From Deltaproteobacteria bacterium (GTDB taxonomy: Bacteria > Desulfobacterota > DSM-4660 > Desulfatiglandales > HGW-15): DNA of 11,017 nt. A program made the translations under genes and the position numbers. How positions within the stretch are numbered: position 1 is the first letter of the stretch; every line of letters begins with the position of its first letter. Positions 2,475 to 11,017 of this stretch are shown here, piece by piece. A model generated the notes under the pieces. It did not search any database and had not been told where the DNA came from. It worked only from the letters and a program-made list of their open reading frames with translations. The stretch is taken from NCBI GenBank assembly GCA_016926135.1, contig JAFGPH010000138.1, forward strand, positions 1 to 11,017, read 5' to 3'.

Positions 2475-3215
2475 TTAAAAATACTTCTGGCTCTTGAAGA
2501 TGATCTCCACCCGCCGATTCCTGGCCCTTCCCTCGGGGCTCTGGTTGGTGTCTGCCGGATGGGCGTCTCCGTAACCCGCAAGGGCAATGGAAAGGGGGGA
2601 AATGCTTTCCTGTTTGACGAAGTACTCCATCAGGTTGAAGGCCCTCGCCAGGGAGAGATCTTCATTGGAGGGATACGTGCCGCTGCGGATGGGGATGTTG
2701 TCCGTGTGCCCGTCGATGTAAACCTGATAGTCTGAGTTCCGCATGAAGCTGCCGATCCTTTGCAGGATGGGGATCATCTCATCGCTGATATCCGCACCCC
2801 CCGGGGCAAAGAGGAGCTGATGGCCGAAGACCAGTTTGAAGCCCCCCTTGAAGTTCTCCACGATCAGCGACGCTCCCGTCTCTTGAAAGGTTTTGTCCTC
2901 CTTGGGCGAGACAATTTCGTCCGGATCGTCCTCCGCCCTCTTGACCACCAGGGCATCCTTGAGCTTCTCGTAAAGACTCTCGATGAGAACCTCCTTGGGC
3001 CTGTAAATCTCGCCGTACTCCTTGAAGTGGAGGATTCCGCAACTGGCGGTGAAATTGTGGAACATGCTCTTGAAGGTCTTGTCGTCCATGGTGGACATGG
3101 AAAGAAGGAGCACGAAGAAGGTGAGGAGCAGGGTGGAGAGGTCCGAAAAGGTCACCAGCCAGCCCGCCCCCCTGGCATCTTTCTCTTCTTTGGGCCTGTA
3201 CGGATTAGGAGCCAT
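2475..3215 (-). CDS. MotB/OmpA-family stator-like protein (canonical copy)
   Basis: A MotB-type protein: one N-terminal membrane helix followed by a periplasmic OmpA-like peptidoglycan-binding domain. In flagellar stators such proteins pair with MotA and conduct ions through an aspartate in the helix. Here the helix spans about residues 19-40 (WLVTFSDLSTLLLTFFVLLL) with Asp25 in the expected place. The C-terminal domain keeps the key motifs: DGHTDNIPI (168-176), NEDLSLARA (184-192), GYGDAHP (214-220) and NRRVEIIF (233-240). The 246-residue length is normal for MotB. The ATG follows a GGAGG site 5 nt upstream and lies inside the 3' end of the preceding MotB-like gene, an 11-bp overlap that implies translational coupling. 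No motA is adjacent, so its partner and process (flagellar rotation, gliding or another energised envelope system) are not settled by this window. Confidence 0.88.
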   Translation of the reverse strand: MAPNPYRPKEEKDARGAGWLVTFSDLSTLLLTFFVLLLSMSTMDDKTFKSMFHNFTASCGILHFKEYGEIYRPKEVLIESLYEKLKDALVVKRAEDDPDEIVSPKEDKTFQETGASLIVENFKGGFKLVFGHQLLFAPGGADISDEMIPILQRIGSFMRNSDYQVYIDGHTDNIPIRSGTYPSNEDLSLARAFNLMEYFVKQESISPLSIALAGYGDAHPADTNQSPEGRARNRRVEIIFKSQKYF

Positions 3216-3996
3216 GTTCCCCTCCGGGCACCTTAAAAAGGAAACCCTTGAAATCCAGGAAGGAGTCCCTCCAGGGCCTGCTCAACCTGTAAGGGACGCG
3301 CTCGCGGTAGTCCAGGATAATCTCCACCTGCCGGTTGGCTTCATGTGTCTCCTTCAACGTTCCCTTTTTCGCGGCATTTGTGCCAAAGCCGTGTGCCACG
3401 ATTCGCTCGGCCGGGATTTCACCCTTCCCGGAAAAAAAGCGGAATACGCTGAAGGCCCTCCCGGCAGAGAGCATCATGGAAGTTGTCAGGCGGTCCTCGT
3501 CAGAAACCATCTCTGAAGAGGCCACGTACCCGCGCAGCTCGATTCTGGAGGGGCTCTCCTTCAGGGCCTCCCTCAGTTCAGAGAGAAACCCCAGGCGATC
3601 CTCCTCGATCCGGCTTGACCCCGGCTTGAAGAGAACGCGGTCGCTCAGGCTGATGATGATCCGTTCATCTTCCTTGATGATGGTCATGTCTTGTTGCATG
3701 GCGTTCTTCAACTCGATGTTCCTCATCATCTCGAAGTCCACCTCCTCCTTCCTCATGGGGGCCCCGCCAACGGTGACGTTCAGGCCTTTGGGCGAGCCGA
3801 TGATGGAATGGGCTCCCGGTTTGAAGCCGAAGGCGCCGGTAACCGAATTCAAGGCCACCAGGCGTTTCTCTTCGGTGATCACCGCCATGCTGAGGAGGAG
3901 GACGAAGAAGGTGAGGAGAAGGGTCATCAGGTCCGTGTAGGTGGTCATCCACGCATTCACGTTCCTCTTCGTTTCGGGTTTCTTTTCGACGCCCAT
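3205..3996 (-). CDS. MotB-like protein with degenerate OmpA motif
   Basis: First gene of a tandem MotB-like pair. The 263-residue product has a short cytoplasmic N-terminus and a membrane helix at about 16-37 (WMTTYTDLMTLLLTFFVLLL) with Asp22 at the ion-coupling position. Its periplasmic region has the spacing of an OmpA/MotB domain: IIISLSDRVLFKPGSSRI (114-131), RIELRGYVAS (152-161), SAGRAFSV (178-185), GFGTNAA and NRQVEIIL (222-229). The signature GHTD is replaced by GYVA (157-160), so the aspartate normally involved in binding peptidoglycan is missing. A basic tail of about 30 residues follows the domain. The start has a strong GGAGGT site 6 nt upstream. The stop overlaps the next gene by 11 bp. 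A plausible role is as the non-anchoring half of a mixed MotB pair, but this is inference. Confidence 0.85.
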   Translation of the reverse strand: MGVEKKPETKRNVNAWMTTYTDLMTLLLTFFVLLLSMAVITEEKRLVALNSVTGAFGFKPGAHSIIGSPKGLNVTVGGAPMRKEEVDFEMMRNIELKNAMQQDMTIIKEDERIIISLSDRVLFKPGSSRIEEDRLGFLSELREALKESPSRIELRGYVASSEMVSDEDRLTTSMMLSAGRAFSVFRFFSGKGEIPAERIVAHGFGTNAAKKGTLKETHEANRQVEIILDYRERVPYRLSRPWRDSFLDFKGFLFKVPGGEHGS

Positions 3997-4059
3997 CCAA
4001 TGACCTCCACCGCATTCACGTCAATACCTTGGCACACTACACCCCGGACCCACCTGGCC

Positions 4060-4247
4060 GGTCTCCGACGCCGGCCCCACAACAGCCCGATTTTCCCAAG
4101 GAAGGGGGCAGGACGCTCCCGAATCCCGGGAAAAGAGCGCACCAGCCAACCCCTACATCGAGCAAATCCTGTGCCAATCGCGACGGCTTCGATATTACGG
4201 GGCGGTAAACCGCAGGGGATGAAGATCAGTTGCGGCGCTGAGAGACC
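4060..4247. ncRNA. Candidate structured RNA element, copy 1
   Basis: Fills most of the 327-bp gap between the MotB-like pair and the amidohydrolase gene. Reading the plus strand, GGTCTC (4060-4065) can pair with GAGACC (4242-4247), and CGCCG (4069-4073) with CGGCG (4233-4237), closing about 160 nt. An internal TCCCG/CGGGA hairpin (4117-4131) sits near the middle, and CGCTC/GAGCG (4114-4118 with 4135-4139) gives an alternative. The 3' part (4188-4245) is the 58-nt block shared with copy 2. No ORF here resembles a known protein. The transcribed strand is not established. It could also be an untranscribed repetitive element. Confidence 0.45.
4188..4245. repeat. 58-nt intergenic repeat, copy 1
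   Basis: Matches 10960-11017 at 50 of 58 positions without gaps. The shared core includes TTCGATA, TACGGGGCGGTAA, AAGAT, AGTTGCGG and CTGAGAGA. Neither copy is coding, so this is repeated noncoding DNA rather than a protein paralogue. Confidence 0.9.
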
Positions 4248-4321
4248 ACCCCCCGAGGCCCTCCTGATTCAAAAACGCGATCGTTGAGAGGGCACTGGGG
4301 GTGGTCGTCCAGCCCGCAACT
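4228..4321. repeat. Long imperfect hairpin next to the amidohydrolase stop codon
   Basis: The arms 4228-4253 and 4297-4321 pair over about 22 bp in three runs: AGTTGCGG with CCGCAACT, GCTG with CAGC, and GACCACCCCC with GGGGGTGGTC. The loop is about 43 nt. The hairpin begins 2 bp beyond the amidohydrolase stop codon. Neither strand has a T tract after the stem, so a simple intrinsic terminator is not supported. The left arm belongs to the 58-nt repeat and the right arm contains the 22-nt repeat, so the structure competes with the long-range stem of copy 1. Confidence 0.75.
4299..4320. repeat. 22-nt repeat, copy 1
   Basis: Identical to 10828-10849 at 21 of 22 positions (core GGTGGTCGTCCAG, then CCGCAAC). 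Here it lies after the 58-nt block, at the edge of the amidohydrolase gene. In copy 2 it lies before the 58-nt block. This suggests either a tandem or truncated arrangement at this locus or a modular element. Confidence 0.85.
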
Positions 4322-4323
4322 CA

Positions 4324-5169
4324 CTACGTCAAGCCCAGCAGGAGGGCCGCGTTCTCCCCTTTGATTTTTTTCACGGCCTCCTCCGGGATGCGGGCATCCT
4401 CCATTTCCTGGAAATACCGGCCCGGCTTCAGCAGGGGGTAGTCGGAGCCGAAGAGGATCCTCTCATACCCGATGATCTCGCCCGCGATCCTGTAGATGTC
4501 CGGCGTGTAGAGGTATGGGGACGCGGCCGTGTCGAACCACGTGTTGCGGAGCACTTCCCTGACTTCTTTCTTCATGAGGGCGTAAAAGAAGAGACCTCCC
4601 CCCCAGTGGGCCAGCACAAAACGATTGGCAGGCCTTTCCTTCACCAGCTCGTAGAATTCACTGAGTGGGGTAGTGGTCTTTCCCGGGTAGGCATGCCCGA
4701 CCGGCTCGTTGGCGTGCAGGAGAACAGGCACATCGAAACGCAGGCAGAGATCCGCCAATTCCCTGAGCGGCCCCCCCCTCGGCACGGCAGAGGCATCCCC
4801 GTGATAGAGGGCAAGTTCACCCACTCCCGAGAGGCCCGCATCCAGGCACCTTTCGGCCTCCTTCAACGCCCGGTTGGAGAGGGGTGAAAAGGTGCAGAAG
4901 CCTGTAAGCCTGTGTGGATATTTCTGCACGGATTCGATGACGTAATCGTTGTGCCTGCGAAGGTGATCCTCCTTTTCCCACGGAAAGCCGAAGACCACGG
5001 AGCGTTCGATTTCCTCCTCGTCCATTGTCCTCAGGAGTTCTTCTGTTCCTGCCATCCTGGAATCGGGGGATCCGTAGAGGAGTTCAAAGGCCGGTTCTCC
5101 GGAAAAGAGAAGCCCTCTATCCCCTACGAAAGCAGGGGGGAAAATATGGGTATGAAAATCGACAATCAT
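4324..5169 (-). CDS. Amidohydrolase family protein (ACMSD-like, metal-dependent)
   Basis: A 281-residue TIM-barrel hydrolase or decarboxylase of the Amidohydrolase_2 (ACMSD-related) group. The metal-site pattern is visible: FHTHIFP at the N-terminus (His6 and His8), GVGE (Glu118), LLHANEP (His152), LAHWGGG (His188) and LFGSDYP (Asp243). Length and motif spacing fit a complete protein. There is no signal peptide, so it is probably cytoplasmic. The substrate cannot be read from the sequence; members of the group decarboxylate or hydrolyse small carboxylates, and many remain uncharacterised. It is the second gene of an operon: its ATG overlaps the stop of the upstream thioredoxin gene (ATGA), implying coupled translation, since no good ribosome site of its own is seen. 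The gene ends directly against a long hairpin from the repeat element. Confidence 0.85.
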   Translation of the reverse strand: MIVDFHTHIFPPAFVGDRGLLFSGEPAFELLYGSPDSRMAGTEELLRTMDEEEIERSVVFGFPWEKEDHLRRHNDYVIESVQKYPHRLTGFCTFSPLSNRALKEAERCLDAGLSGVGELALYHGDASAVPRGGPLRELADLCLRFDVPVLLHANEPVGHAYPGKTTTPLSEFYELVKERPANRFVLAHWGGGLFFYALMKKEVREVLRNTWFDTAASPYLYTPDIYRIAGEIIGYERILFGSDYPLLKPGRYFQEMEDARIPEEAVKKIKGENAALLLGLT

Positions 5170-5851: not shown

Positions 5852-6781
5852 ATGGTCAAGGGCGCGTGGGTTTTTACGGTCTTCCTGTCTTTCTTTCTCT
5901 CCTGCGGCGACCGGCCATGGCCCGAGGCGGCCGAACGCGACCCTGGCACAAAGGGTATCCGGGAGTCCATCCTGGCCGGCACATGGTATCCGGGAAACGG
6001 GAACGAACTGCGGCGGACCATCCAGGGATATCTTTCCCGGGTCAAGGCACCCAGGCCTGAAGGGGATCTGCGGGGCATCATCGTGCCCCATGCAGGATAC
6101 ATGTACTCCGGACAGGTGGCGGCCCATGCCTACCATCTCCTTCAGGGAGCGGGGTTCACCCGGATGGTCCTGATCGGCCCGAGTCACAGGCACAGGTTCA
6201 GAGGGGTCTCGGCAGACCTTCACCAGGGCTACAGGACGCCTCTGGGCACGATTCCCGTGGACCTGGACTTTGCCCGAAAACTCCTCCATGCGGAGGGCGC
6301 CCGCGTGCGGTCCGTGCCGGAGGCCCACAGCCGTGAACACTCCCTGGAGATCCAGGTCCCTTTCCTCCAGGTGGTGCTGAAGGATTTCCATATCGTCCCC
6401 CTTGTCATGGGGGAACAGGACTTCGAGACCTGCTCCGCACTGGCCGCAGTCCTGGGTCGCCTCCTTCAGGGGGACACGAAGACCCTGCTCCTGGCCAGTA
6501 CGGACCTCTCCCATTTCCACGGGGACACCGAGGCCAAGAACCTGGACCTGGAGTTCATCCGGAATGTTCGGGAGTATGATCCACAGGGACTAGCCGACTC
6601 CCTGTTCAAAGGGGCCTGCGAGGCCTGCGGGGGAGGTCCGACCATTGCGACCATGATCGCCGCCCGTGCCCTCGGCGCCGACCGGGCGGAGATCCTCCAG
6701 TATGCCACGTCCGGTGGCGTCACCGGGAATCGGACCGAGGTGGTGGGATATCTGTCGGCAGCCCTGATGAAGGGAAAGTGA
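5852..6781 (+). CDS. MEMO-family protein (AmmeMemoRadiSam protein B-like), exported
   Basis: Belongs to the MEMO1/extradiol-dioxygenase-like family, called AmmeMemoRadiSam system protein B in bacteria; its enzymatic role is unresolved. Counting from the ATG at 5852, the 309-residue product has PHAGYMYSG (79-87), GPSHRHRF (109-116), EHSLEIQVPFL (162-172), STDLSHFH (216-223), ACGGGPTIA (258-266) and YATSGGVTGNRTEVVGY (284-300). These cover the His and Cys positions that form the metal-like site in the family. An N-terminal hydrophobic stretch ends in FLSCGD (15-20), suggesting export and perhaps lipid attachment at Cys18, which is unusual for a family generally regarded as cytoplasmic. A start at 5822 is possible, but GGAGG lies 5 nt before 5852. 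The AMMECR1 and radical-SAM partners are absent. The stop overlaps or abuts the next gene. Confidence 0.87.
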   Translation: MVKGAWVFTVFLSFFLSCGDRPWPEAAERDPGTKGIRESILAGTWYPGNGNELRRTIQGYLSRVKAPRPEGDLRGIIVPHAGYMYSGQVAAHAYHLLQGAGFTRMVLIGPSHRHRFRGVSADLHQGYRTPLGTIPVDLDFARKLLHAEGARVRSVPEAHSREHSLEIQVPFLQVVLKDFHIVPLVMGEQDFETCSALAAVLGRLLQGDTKTLLLASTDLSHFHGDTEAKNLDLEFIRNVREYDPQGLADSLFKGACEACGGGPTIATMIAARALGADRAEILQYATSGGVTGNRTEVVGYLSAALMKGK

Positions 6782-6792
6782 CGGAGGAAGAC

Positions 6793-8658
6793 ATGGAGAA
6801 ACAGTACCCCGAGAAATTCCAGTCTGAGGAGAGAATCTTCAGCAAGATCCACCGGGGGGACAGGATCTTCATTGGAACAGGGTGCGGAGAGCCCCAGTAT
6901 CTCGTGAAGGCGCTCATCGAGTATGTCTCCTCCCATCCAAAGGCGGTTCTGGACGCAGAGGTCTTTCACGTCTGGAGCCTGGGGGTCGCGCCTTACGCGG
7001 ACGAGAAATTCGTGGACAACTTCAGGCACAACTCCTTCTTTATCGGGACGAACACGCGTAATCCCGTGAACGAAGGTCTTGCCGACTACACGCCCATCGC
7101 CCTCTCGGCGGTGCCGGATCTCTTCCGGAGAAAGGTCGTGCCCGTGGATGTGGCCCTCGTCCAGACCTCTCCGCCGGATCAGAACGGGTACATGAGCCTG
7201 GGGGTCAGCGTGGACATCACCAAGGCCGCGGTCGAAAACGCCTCCCTGGTCATTGCCCAGGTCAACACCCGTATGCCGAGGGTCCACGGAGAGACCTTCG
7301 TGAACATCAGGGACGTGGATTATGTGATCCCCCATGACGAGCCCCTGCTGGAATACGAAAGGGCACTGCCGGATGAACTGGCCCAGCGCATCGGCAGGCA
7401 CGTGGCACGCATCGTGGAGGACGGGGATACCATCCAGGTAGGCTACGGCAGCATTCCCAATGCCATCCTGGCCAACCTAAAGGGGAAGAAGCACCTGGGG
7501 GTCCACACCGAGCTGCTCACGGACGGCATGGTGGAACTCATGAAGTCGGGTGTTGCGGACAACAGCAACAAGAGCATCAACCGGGGAAAGACGGTGGCCA
7601 CCTTCTGCATGGGCAGGAAGTCCACCTATGAGTACATCGACGACAACCCGGGCGTCGAATTCAGGTCCGTGGATTACACCAACAATCCCCTGGTCATTGC
7701 CCAACATATGCGCATGGTCGCCATCAACAGCTGTCTCCAGATCGACCTCACGGGTCAGGCCACGGCCGAGTCCATCGGCAAGAGGTTCTACAGCGGGGTC
7801 GGGGGCCAGACCGATTTCATGCGGGGCACGGTCCTCTCACCCGGAGGAAAGACCATCCTGGTCATCCTCTCCACAGCCAAGGGGGGGGAGGTGTCCAGAA
7901 TCGTCCCCTTCCTCTACGAGGGTGCGGGGGTCACCCTGGGCCGCAGCGACGTCCACTATGTGGTCTCCGAATACGGCATTGCCTACCTCCACGGGAAGAG
8001 CATCCGGGAACGGGCCATGGAATTGATCGCCATAGCCCATCCCAAGTTCAGACCCTGGCTCATCGAGGAGGCCAAGCGGCAGAACCTGATCTACAGGGAT
8101 CAGAAATTCATCCCCGGCGACAAGGGGGAATACCCGGAACAATATGAGACCTACAGAACCACCAAAGAGGGGACGGAGATCTTTCTGCGACCCCTCAGGA
8201 TCAGTGACGAGCCCTTGCTGAAAAATTTCTTCTACGATTTGTCGGACAAGAGCATGTACCGGCGGTTCATCTCACCCAAGAAGGGAATGCCCCACCAGGA
8301 ATTGCAGGACTACGTGGTCATCGATTACTCCAAAGGCATGGCCATCGTCGCCACCATCCCGAAGGAAGGCCGGGAGAGGGTGGTGGGTTTGGCCCAGTAC
8401 GGCATCAGCCAGGAAACACACATGGCCGAGGTGGCCTTTATCGTGGCCGACGACTTCCAGAACAAGGGGGTCGGCAGCGAGCTGCTTGCCTACATGACCT
8501 ACCTGGCCAAGAAACAGGGCCTCCTGGGTTTCACGGCAGAGGTGCTCATGGAGAACAGGCCCATGCTCCACGTCTTTAACAAGATGGGATTCGACATGCA
8601 GAGAAGCGGGGAGGGCGGGGTCTATGAACTGAGGATGCTCTTCAAGGAAACGCACTGA
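6793..8658 (+). CDS. Acetyl-CoA hydrolase/CoA-transferase fused to GNAT domain
   Basis: A two-domain protein of 621 residues from the ATG at 6793. Residues 1 to about 440 are an acetyl-CoA hydrolase/4-hydroxybutyrate CoA-transferase family domain, with GYGSIPNAI (218-226), VHTELLTDG (237-245, Glu240 the likely catalytic residue that forms the CoA thioester), GVGGQTDF (335-342) and VSEYGIAYLHGKS (391-403). Residues about 463-617 are a GNAT acyltransferase domain (IFLRPLRISDE, then the acetyl-CoA loop QNKGVGSELL, 556-565). The first domain probably moves CoA between acetyl-CoA and a short carboxylate, or hydrolyses it; the second may acetylate a protein or use the same acyl-CoA. A GTG start at 6778 would overlap the MEMO gene, but the GGAGGA site at 6782-6787 fits the ATG at 6793. 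It is co-transcribed with the MEMO gene. Confidence 0.92.
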   Translation: MEKQYPEKFQSEERIFSKIHRGDRIFIGTGCGEPQYLVKALIEYVSSHPKAVLDAEVFHVWSLGVAPYADEKFVDNFRHNSFFIGTNTRNPVNEGLADYTPIALSAVPDLFRRKVVPVDVALVQTSPPDQNGYMSLGVSVDITKAAVENASLVIAQVNTRMPRVHGETFVNIRDVDYVIPHDEPLLEYERALPDELAQRIGRHVARIVEDGDTIQVGYGSIPNAILANLKGKKHLGVHTELLTDGMVELMKSGVADNSNKSINRGKTVATFCMGRKSTYEYIDDNPGVEFRSVDYTNNPLVIAQHMRMVAINSCLQIDLTGQATAESIGKRFYSGVGGQTDFMRGTVLSPGGKTILVILSTAKGGEVSRIVPFLYEGAGVTLGRSDVHYVVSEYGIAYLHGKSIRERAMELIAIAHPKFRPWLIEEAKRQNLIYRDQKFIPGDKGEYPEQYETYRTTKEGTEIFLRPLRISDEPLLKNFFYDLSDKSMYRRFISPKKGMPHQELQDYVVIDYSKGMAIVATIPKEGRERVVGLAQYGISQETHMAEVAFIVADDFQNKGVGSELLAYMTYLAKKQGLLGFTAEVLMENRPMLHVFNKMGFDMQRSGEGGVYELRMLFKETH

Positions 8659-8967: not shown

Positions 8968-10761
8968 ATGCAGTCCAATCTCCTGGATTATTCGCCCATC
9001 CCCCAGTTCGTCCTCGGACCGGACCACAGGGTTATCCGCTGGAATCACGCCTGCGAGGCGCTCACAGGATACAAGGCCGGGGATATGATCGGAACGGACT
9101 TCCAGTGGAGACCCTTTTACGAGAGCAAACGGCCGGTGCTGGCCGACCTGGTGCTCGACGGCGACTACGAGGGATTCCTCGATCTCTACGGACTGAAGTC
9201 GGGATCGGAATCCGAACTCCTGCCCCATGCGTGGGAGGCCAGGGACTTTTTCTCAAACCTTGGCGGCAGGCCCAGGCATGTCTCCCTCCTTGCTGCCCCT
9301 GTGCGGGACGTTGAGGGGCATTCGATCGGCGCCCTGGAGACCATCCAGGACATCACCGTTCAGGTTCAATTCGAAAGCGACCTGATGCAGTCGGAGCGGC
9401 GTTACCGGATCCTGGCGGAGCACGTGGCGGACGGCGTAACGGTCGTCCAGGGGAGGAGAATGGTCTTCGTCAACCAGGCCTTTGCCACCCTCCTGGGATA
9501 CGAGGCGCCTGCCGAGCTGATGGAAAAGGATGCAGAGGGATTGATCTGCCCGGAATTCAGGGACCAATTCAGGAAGACCCTCCGGATCCTCGAAGGCGGG
9601 ATCTCCCTGAGGGTCCAATGGTCCTGGCCCTGCAAGACAAGAAAGGGAAACGAGGTCTGGCTGGAAACCTACCAGAACGGGTTTGAATGGGACGGTGGCC
9701 CTGCAGTCCTCATCACCACGCGGGACATCACGGAGAGGATGGTTCAGGAAAGGGCACTCCAGGCCGAGACCGAGCACCTCAAAAATGAGAATAGAAGGTT
9801 GAGATCGTCCATCCAGGAGCGCTACAGATTCGGGGAGATCATCGGAAAGAGCCAGCCCATGCAGGAGGTCTATGAACGGATCCTCCAGTCCGCATCCACC
9901 GACGCCGGGGTCATCATCCATGGGGAGTCCGGCACAGGCAAAGAACTTGTGGCCCAGGCCATCCACAACGAGAGCGCCCGCCGCGGCAGGCCTTTTATGC
10001 CCGTGAACTGCGGCGGAATTCCCGTGACCCTCATGGAAAGCGAGTTCTTCGGGTACAGGCGGGGGGCCTTCACCGGCGCCCATGCGGACAAGCAGGGCTA
10101 CTTCGACCTGGCAAACGGCGGCACCCTATTCCTCGACGAGGTGGCGGAACTGGACCCCGCCATGCAGGCAAAGCTCCTCAGGGCCATCGAGACGCGGGCC
10201 TACATGCCCGTCGGCGGAAGAGAACTGAAAAAGTCCGACTTCCGCATCATTGCAGCCACCCACAAGGATCTCCCTCAATTGCTGGAAATGGGCATCATGA
10301 GGGAAGACTTCTTTTACAGGATCCACATTATCCCCATTTCCGTCCCTCCCCTGAGAGAGAGGAAAGAGGACATCCCCTTGCTCGTGGAGCATTTCCTCCG
10401 GTCTCTCGGAAGGGACGGGGCTGCCCTCCGCATCCCTTCGAGAGTATTGGATCGCCTCATGGAACACGACTGGCCCGGGAACGTGCGGGAACTCCAAAAC
10501 GTGCTGCAACGATACCTTACCGTGAGGGAAGTCCATTTCCCCGCAGGGTCCGGATCGCCTTCGAGACGGCCCGAATTCCCCGATCGTGCATCCGGGCAGG
10601 ACACGGATGGGGAACTCAGGACCTCCATAGACGGCTATGAAAAGAGCCTTATCATGAAAGCCCTCCAGAAAAACCACTGGCACAAGGCAAAGGCAGCCAC
10701 CTCGCTCGGCATTTCCCGCAGGACCCTTTTCAGGAAACTCAGACAGCTTGAGCTGGCCTGA
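8968..10761 (+). CDS. PAS-PAS sigma-54-dependent transcriptional activator
   Basis: A 597-residue NtrC-type enhancer-binding protein without a receiver domain. Two PAS sensor domains occupy about residues 1-132 (FVLGPDHRVIRWNHACEALTGY) and 144-258 (MVFVNQAFATLLGYE; ending TTRDITER). A coiled-coil linker follows at about 258-285. The AAA+ domain is complete, with Walker A GESGTGKE (319-326), the sigma-54 contact loop GAFTGA (366-371), Walker B GGTLFLDE (384-391), REDFFYRIH (445-453) and WPGNVRELQN (502-511). A Fis-type helix-turn-helix closes the protein (about 572-594, AKAATSLGISRRTLFRKLRQ). It should bind enhancer DNA and use ATP to open sigma-54 promoters in response to a signal sensed by PAS. 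A stop codon lies one codon upstream of the ATG, so the start cannot be earlier; its ribosome site (GGTGA) is weak. Its target genes are not evident. Confidence 0.95.
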   Translation: MQSNLLDYSPIPQFVLGPDHRVIRWNHACEALTGYKAGDMIGTDFQWRPFYESKRPVLADLVLDGDYEGFLDLYGLKSGSESELLPHAWEARDFFSNLGGRPRHVSLLAAPVRDVEGHSIGALETIQDITVQVQFESDLMQSERRYRILAEHVADGVTVVQGRRMVFVNQAFATLLGYEAPAELMEKDAEGLICPEFRDQFRKTLRILEGGISLRVQWSWPCKTRKGNEVWLETYQNGFEWDGGPAVLITTRDITERMVQERALQAETEHLKNENRRLRSSIQERYRFGEIIGKSQPMQEVYERILQSASTDAGVIIHGESGTGKELVAQAIHNESARRGRPFMPVNCGGIPVTLMESEFFGYRRGAFTGAHADKQGYFDLANGGTLFLDEVAELDPAMQAKLLRAIETRAYMPVGGRELKKSDFRIIAATHKDLPQLLEMGIMREDFFYRIHIIPISVPPLRERKEDIPLLVEHFLRSLGRDGAALRIPSRVLDRLMEHDWPGNVRELQNVLQRYLTVREVHFPAGSGSPSRRPEFPDRASGQDTDGELRTSIDGYEKSLIMKALQKNHWHKAKAATSLGISRRTLFRKLRQLELA

Positions 10762-10827
10762 GTCATAAATGCCATGACGTATTCTGTAGCCATGAATGAA
10801 ACCATCCACGGTGGAAGGGCCGGCGGC

Positions 10828-10849
10828 GGGTGGTCGTCCAGACCGCAAC
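10828..10849. repeat. 22-nt repeat, copy 2
   Basis: 21 of 22 positions match 4299-4320. Its 3' half, ACCGCAAC (10842-10849), is the exact complement of GTTGCGGT (11001-11008) in the 58-nt repeat downstream. Confidence 0.85.
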
Positions 10850-10959
10850 GGTTTCTCCGATGCGTATAAGACGGGACCCGGATTCTGCATTTTCCACAAG
10901 CAGCCCCAGGCTGCGACACCCGAAACGGGGTACAGCCCTGTCCCTGCAACGGTAGGAAT

Positions 10960-11017
10960 TTCGATACTACGGGGCGGTAACCGGCAGAGGATAAAGATGA
11001 GTTGCGGTCCTGAGAGA
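10960..11017. repeat. 58-nt intergenic repeat, copy 2
   Basis: Matches 4188-4245 at 50 of 58 positions and is cut by the window end while still matching, so the repeat probably extends further. Confidence 0.9.

Follow-up and report, generated by a model that had tools for sequence, protein, structure and literature searches.

A short non-coding repeat with ends able to pair with one another occupies two sites on the contig studied here, and a related copy lies on another metagenome contig. The window, meaning the whole 11,017-nucleotide stretch of DNA that was analysed, holds copy 1 at 4056-4252 and copy 2 from 10828 to about 11024, the latter right end being extrapolated beyond the last letter. 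We tentatively read the repeat as a DNA element of about 197 bp that is non-coding and non-autonomous, MITE-like and bounded by imperfect terminal inverted repeats (R1 and R2), a reading that we regard as close to an even call and that competes chiefly with a transcribed structured RNA. The parts of the repeat are arranged as follows.

4056-4077, plus strand: R1 arm of copy 1, diverged (11/18 identity in register to 10828-10845; 14/18 columns paired with R2)
4188-4245, plus strand: conserved 58-nt block of copy 1 (50/58 identity to 10960-11017)
4229-4252, plus strand: R2 arm of copy 1, partner of the upstream R1 or, far more strongly, of the downstream R1'
4299-4320, plus strand: R1', an extra R1-like arm 3' of copy 1 (21/22 identity to 10828-10849)
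4229-4320, no strand assigned: R2-R1' hairpin with a 46-nt loop, judged by the stability of the 4186-4330 fold
10828-10849, plus strand: R1 arm of copy 2 and left end of the element, with a 9-bp run paired to R2
10850-10959, plus strand: non-coding body of copy 2, not clearly alignable to copy 1 (plus frame of 10844-10993 similar to the catalogue protein P0125)
10960-11017, plus strand: conserved 58-nt block of copy 2, of which 11001-11017 is the R2 arm, truncated by the window end

Copy 2 begins 67 nt beyond the stop of its upstream gene and is cut off at the window end, apparently also the contig end, a circumstance that the initial annotation had missed. The G+C content is 62.9% in copy 1, 57.9% in copy 2 and 58.4% in the window.

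Two features on which that annotation had based its proposal, a shared block and a long-range stem, are both real. The block aligns without gaps at 50 of 58 positions, and the local alignment of the two intergenic regions scores 93, whereas 300 first-order Markov randomisations reach at most 52. The stem has an identical span of 168 nt in both copies; C4069 and G10841, G4237 and C11009, and the block are all separated by one common offset, 6772, and since this single offset holds for both stem arms and for the block, the correspondence of the copies is positional. The individual pairs are present as they had been described, two adjacent ones being changed on both sides (C-G to G-C and G-C to A-T), and copy 1 forms each of the five claimed pairs, a result equalled by 25 of 5000 shuffles of 3997-4187 and by none of 164 slides. 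Over the whole stem, copy 1 pairs 14 of 18 columns (2/5000 shuffles and 0/164 slides do as well) and copy 2 pairs 13 of the 16 columns it holds with R2 cut, though the 18 columns and their one bulge were chosen with both copies in view, which flatters figures of this kind; over the nine-pair run of copy 2 alone, copy 1 pairs 6/9, as do 718 of 5000 shuffles. Three columns are paired in copy 2 only, two in copy 1 only and one in neither, and a single one-sided change turns C4065-G4242 of copy 1 into T-G in copy 2. The R1 arms themselves are 11/18 identical in register (4056-4073 in copy 1), matched by 1 of 234 slides.

By itself, the strength of the R1/R2 duplex is not striking. With three different R2 stretches, the duplex of the whole copy 1 stem, scored regardless of register, is matched in strength by 38, 34 and 131 of 500 shuffles, and with a stretch trimmed to the stem by 1/500. 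With R2 cut at 4245, the copy 1 duplex is equalled by 357 and 381 of 500 shuffles and its longest run, 5 bp, is attained in 288 of 300; a gapped, register-free alignment of R1 to the upstream stretch of copy 1 likewise stays at chance level. These chance-level results come from tests that cut R2 short or ignored register, and the suggestion that copy 1 lacks an upstream arm, making the claimed correspondence arbitrary, was rejected by the register test. In copy 2, the 9-bp run between R1 and R2 recurs in 5/300 shuffles and the duplex energy in 72/500, and within its upstream stretch the best match to the reverse complement of copy 1 R2 is R1 itself (10828-10849; 1/500 shuffles as good).

Between these conserved ends the two bodies are dissimilar. 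Compared in register (4074-4187 against 10846-10959), they share 22 of 114 positions, under the mean of the other slides (30.7), and they are nevertheless equal in length between stem and block despite having no recognisable in-register similarity. Gapped alignment shows weak similarity between the bodies (equalled in 31, 96 and 64 of 500 shuffles), and that of the whole upstream stretches is no better (122/500). The CCCG/CGGG hairpin that had been described in the middle of each copy is indeed present in both, but the two are not equivalent, lying 70 and 41 nt before the block, and the pattern arises by chance in 64 and 40 of 1000 shuffles.

A second left arm, overlooked at first reading, lies 46 nt 3' of the R2 arm of copy 1. 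This R1' (4299-4320) is identical at 21 of 22 positions to the R1 of copy 2, with 0/500 shuffles aligning as well, and its duplex with 4226-4254 reaches -45.9 kcal/mol, again unequalled in 500 shuffles. The fold of 4186-4330 has an energy of -70.0 kcal/mol (z -5.2; 0/200 shuffles as stable). When R1' is included in the predicted fold, R2 pairs with it (21.53 expected pairs) and the upstream R1-R2 stem falls to 0.00. The amidohydrolase gene on the minus strand ends at 4324, leaving a 3-nt gap to R1'. We note as a separate observation that so stable a hairpin (4229-4320), 3 nt past the end of that gene, might affect the 3' end of its mRNA.

The related copy came from a protein catalogue. Alignment of the plus-frame translations of both copies gave 40 candidates and one match, P0125 (E 2.4e-14), a 79-residue and apparently spurious open reading frame on a 3971-nt JGI contig; the minus frame gave 29 candidates, none at E 10. 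P0125 shares 41 of 50 residues with the translated plus frame of copy 2 (10844-10993) and resembles copy 1 near the block only; its DNA, as deduced from its residues, could agree with copy 2 at between 78 and 139 of 150 positions, depending on codon choice. Its peptide VVSQGRN would fit an R1 arm with full complementarity to R2, P0125 being known through its translation. The first 24 residues show no similarity to the flank of copy 2 (282 and 495 of 500 shuffles as good), whereas the body, used as a control for this comparison, gives 0/200. P0125 is either another site of the repeat or a related organism's copy of the same site with a diverged flank.

Further copies and known families were sought in several collections. 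Elsewhere in the window, beyond 4050-4323 and 10820-11017, the best matches of five queries, each run on both strands, stayed within the range of 30 shuffled queries. One exact pattern found three matches in the GTDB collection, in unrelated organisms and with flanks unlike the element, which we attribute to chance; such a pattern would miss diverged copies. Among plasmids and phages, the DNA search returned short matches only (E 0.07 or worse) and the P0125 query none. In viral contigs, four patterns, the exact R1 and R2 patterns among them, had no matches, nor did one degenerate body pattern, and two protein-guided scans yielded 53 and 13 pattern stretches, none of them confirmed. Rfam gave no match in the whole window at the gathering score; permissive runs gave one weak match over 3980-4400 (14.6 bits against a cut-off of 40) and one over 10760-11017 (14 bits against 46.7). 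Pfam, at E 1e-5, had no match for P0123 or P0125.

We prefer the MITE-like reading, with some reserve, because ends that match and change jointly are to be expected of terminal inverted repeats no less than of an RNA stem, and because a surplus end such as R1' is in keeping with mobility. On this reading, a transposase supplied from another locus would recognise both arms and carry the element to intergenic positions; R1 and R2 would change together, both having to fit the same protein, the block beside R2 would be a subterminal site, the bodies would be cargo-free filler differing by subfamily (copy 1 as against copy 2 and P0125), and R1' would be the beginning of a second, truncated element. 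The mobility, the transposase, the right end of copy 2 and the origin of R1' are points that we infer. In favour of this reading, the inverted repeats are in register in both copies while remaining imperfect, conserved ends surround dissimilar bodies, and R1' appears to repeat an end without a body, by analogy with truncated elements. P0125 carries the body and block of copy 2 behind a dissimilar upstream peptide, and the repeat is short and non-coding, with no Pfam match and with changes in all three codon positions. The end of copy 2 at an apparent contig end also resembles what assembly-breaking repeats would produce.

Other observations weigh against the MITE-like reading. The DNA copies number only two, and P0125 could represent the copy 2 locus of a related organism whose flank has diverged, in which event dispersal would be less well supported. 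Inspection by eye for a target-site duplication at 4056/4252 or 4060/4247, between which the ends of copy 1 are uncertain, found no matching flanks, copy 2 being cut, and the search of viral contigs with the exact R1 and R2 patterns found no transposase or parent IS. The copies are not A+T-rich, whereas MITEs are described as typically so (PMC10969869, PMC2229807), with YPAL/RU-2 described as an exception (PMC2229807).

Described families show both likenesses to the repeat and differences from it. QMITE2 of Coxiella burnetii has terminal inverted repeats of 23-29 bp around a core of 113-145 bp (PMC10969869); like such bacterial MITEs, our repeat has inverted end repeats (22-25 bp here), a total length of about 200 bp, no gene found and more than one site, but unlike them it has imperfect arms, is not A+T-rich and comes with no direct repeats or parent IS found. 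The Correia/NEMIS elements of Neisseria, with 24-bp terminal inverted repeats and a length of about 107 or 155 bp, are similarly short, intergenic and bounded by inverted repeats of about 24 bp; the TA termini listed for them are absent from the arm ends here (PMC2229807). The long stem-loop arm of the Caulobacter CIR repeats recalls the R2-R1' hairpin of copy 1, but the CIR models consist of two separate arms and a linker (PMC2229807). An integron attC site, for which the consensus boxes are RYYYAAC/GTTRRRY, was considered and rejected by eye, the repeat having CCGCAAC/GTTGCGG and no visible pairing of inner boxes.

The strongest competitor, which we consider perhaps half as probable as the MITE-like element, is the one originally proposed: a structured RNA, transcribed over about 197 nt, with R1/R2 as its closing stem and a conserved block at its 3' side; the R1' of copy 1 could then compete for R2 as a possible switch or disruption. 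Such an RNA would account for a stem that stays in register through two double-sided changes and a single one-sided one (C-G to T-G), for a block better conserved than the body, and for the presence of the R1-R2 stem in the isolated fold of copy 1 (14.61 expected pairs). It fits less well with the whole-element folds, which are no more stable than shuffles on the plus strand (z -0.31 and -0.67) or the minus strand (z +0.40 and -0.40), the folds of copy 2 lacking its last few bases at the window end; only the R2-R1' region of copy 1 folds above shuffle stability. The R1-R2 stem of copy 2, with R2 cut, is weakly predicted (1.93 expected pairs), pairs are broken in three columns in copy 1, two in copy 2 and one in both, the middle hairpins do not correspond, and Rfam offers no family at the gathering score. 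The initial annotation had suggested that selection acts on RNA or single-stranded DNA structure in a multicopy element. Its multicopy, non-coding character and the kept end pairing stand, but the pairing need not act in RNA: terminal inverted repeats of a DNA element would give the same pattern, double-sided changes in the end stem being equally expected of them, and a covariation test would require more than two DNA copies.

A palindromic intergenic repeat of the REP/BIME or CIR kind, in which the block-R2-loop-R1' hairpin of copy 1 would be the working part, with mRNA 3' ends as its target, seems to us unlikely. The position and stability (z -5.2) of that hairpin just past the amidohydrolase gene speak for it, as do the much closer resemblance of R1' to the R1 of copy 2 than of the upstream arm of copy 1 to it (21/22 against 11/18) and the placement of copy 2 R1 67 nt after a stop. 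Against it, no R2-like stretch was detected before copy 2 R1 in 10600-10827 (372, 444 and 354 of 500 shuffles as good), in P0125 an R1-like stretch precedes a body like that of copy 2, the upstream R1 is present in copy 1 too, and on reading the sequence no T-run follows the hairpin on the minus strand. Slightly less probable still is a new family of repeated structured RNAs in an unplaced deltaproteobacterial lineage, with a 58-nt 3' block, a compensated closing stem of fixed span, interchangeable bodies and, at some loci, a second left arm able to switch the block to a local hairpin. Finally, a coding sequence, decayed or real, is highly improbable: an open plus frame does run through copy 2 and P0125 was called as an open reading frame, but the starts lie in dissimilar flanks, the eight block differences fall on all codon positions (4, 3 and 1), the window copies differ in body and a Pfam match is absent.

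Pfam, applied to ten window proteins, identified a CTP synthase N-terminus, an EngA/Der GTPase, two MotB-plug/OmpA proteins, the amidohydrolase, a thioredoxin-like protein, Memo and an acetyl-CoA hydrolase-GNAT fusion, and found no MotA domain among the ten. The MotB-plug and OmpA domains occur together in each of two adjacent, slightly overlapping genes (2475-3996), and the fusion is a single open reading frame (6778-8658) joining an acetyl-CoA hydrolase/transferase to a GNAT acetyltransferase domain. After it comes a sigma-54 activator; among its best 120 of 7998 matches, the named relatives, at 47-57% identity, are Deltaproteobacteria, Candidatus Desulfacyla, Desulfobacteraceae and Syntrophaceae, and the nearest of those 120 is a JGI protein at 83%. 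Positions 883-912, 30 nt at the beginning of the CTP synthase gene, match 10774-10803, after the sigma-54 gene, at 80%, possibly by chance.

These results indicate that preserved pairing of the ends, double-sided changes included, is not enough to tell a stem in RNA from the terminal inverted repeats of a DNA element. The predictions of the two readings diverge: an RNA would show covariation within the body, and a DNA element would leave empty sites and have a transposase. Spurious open reading frames in protein catalogues can expose further copies of a non-coding repeat, and the present analysis records a family of small elements in a lineage that has been poorly sampled.
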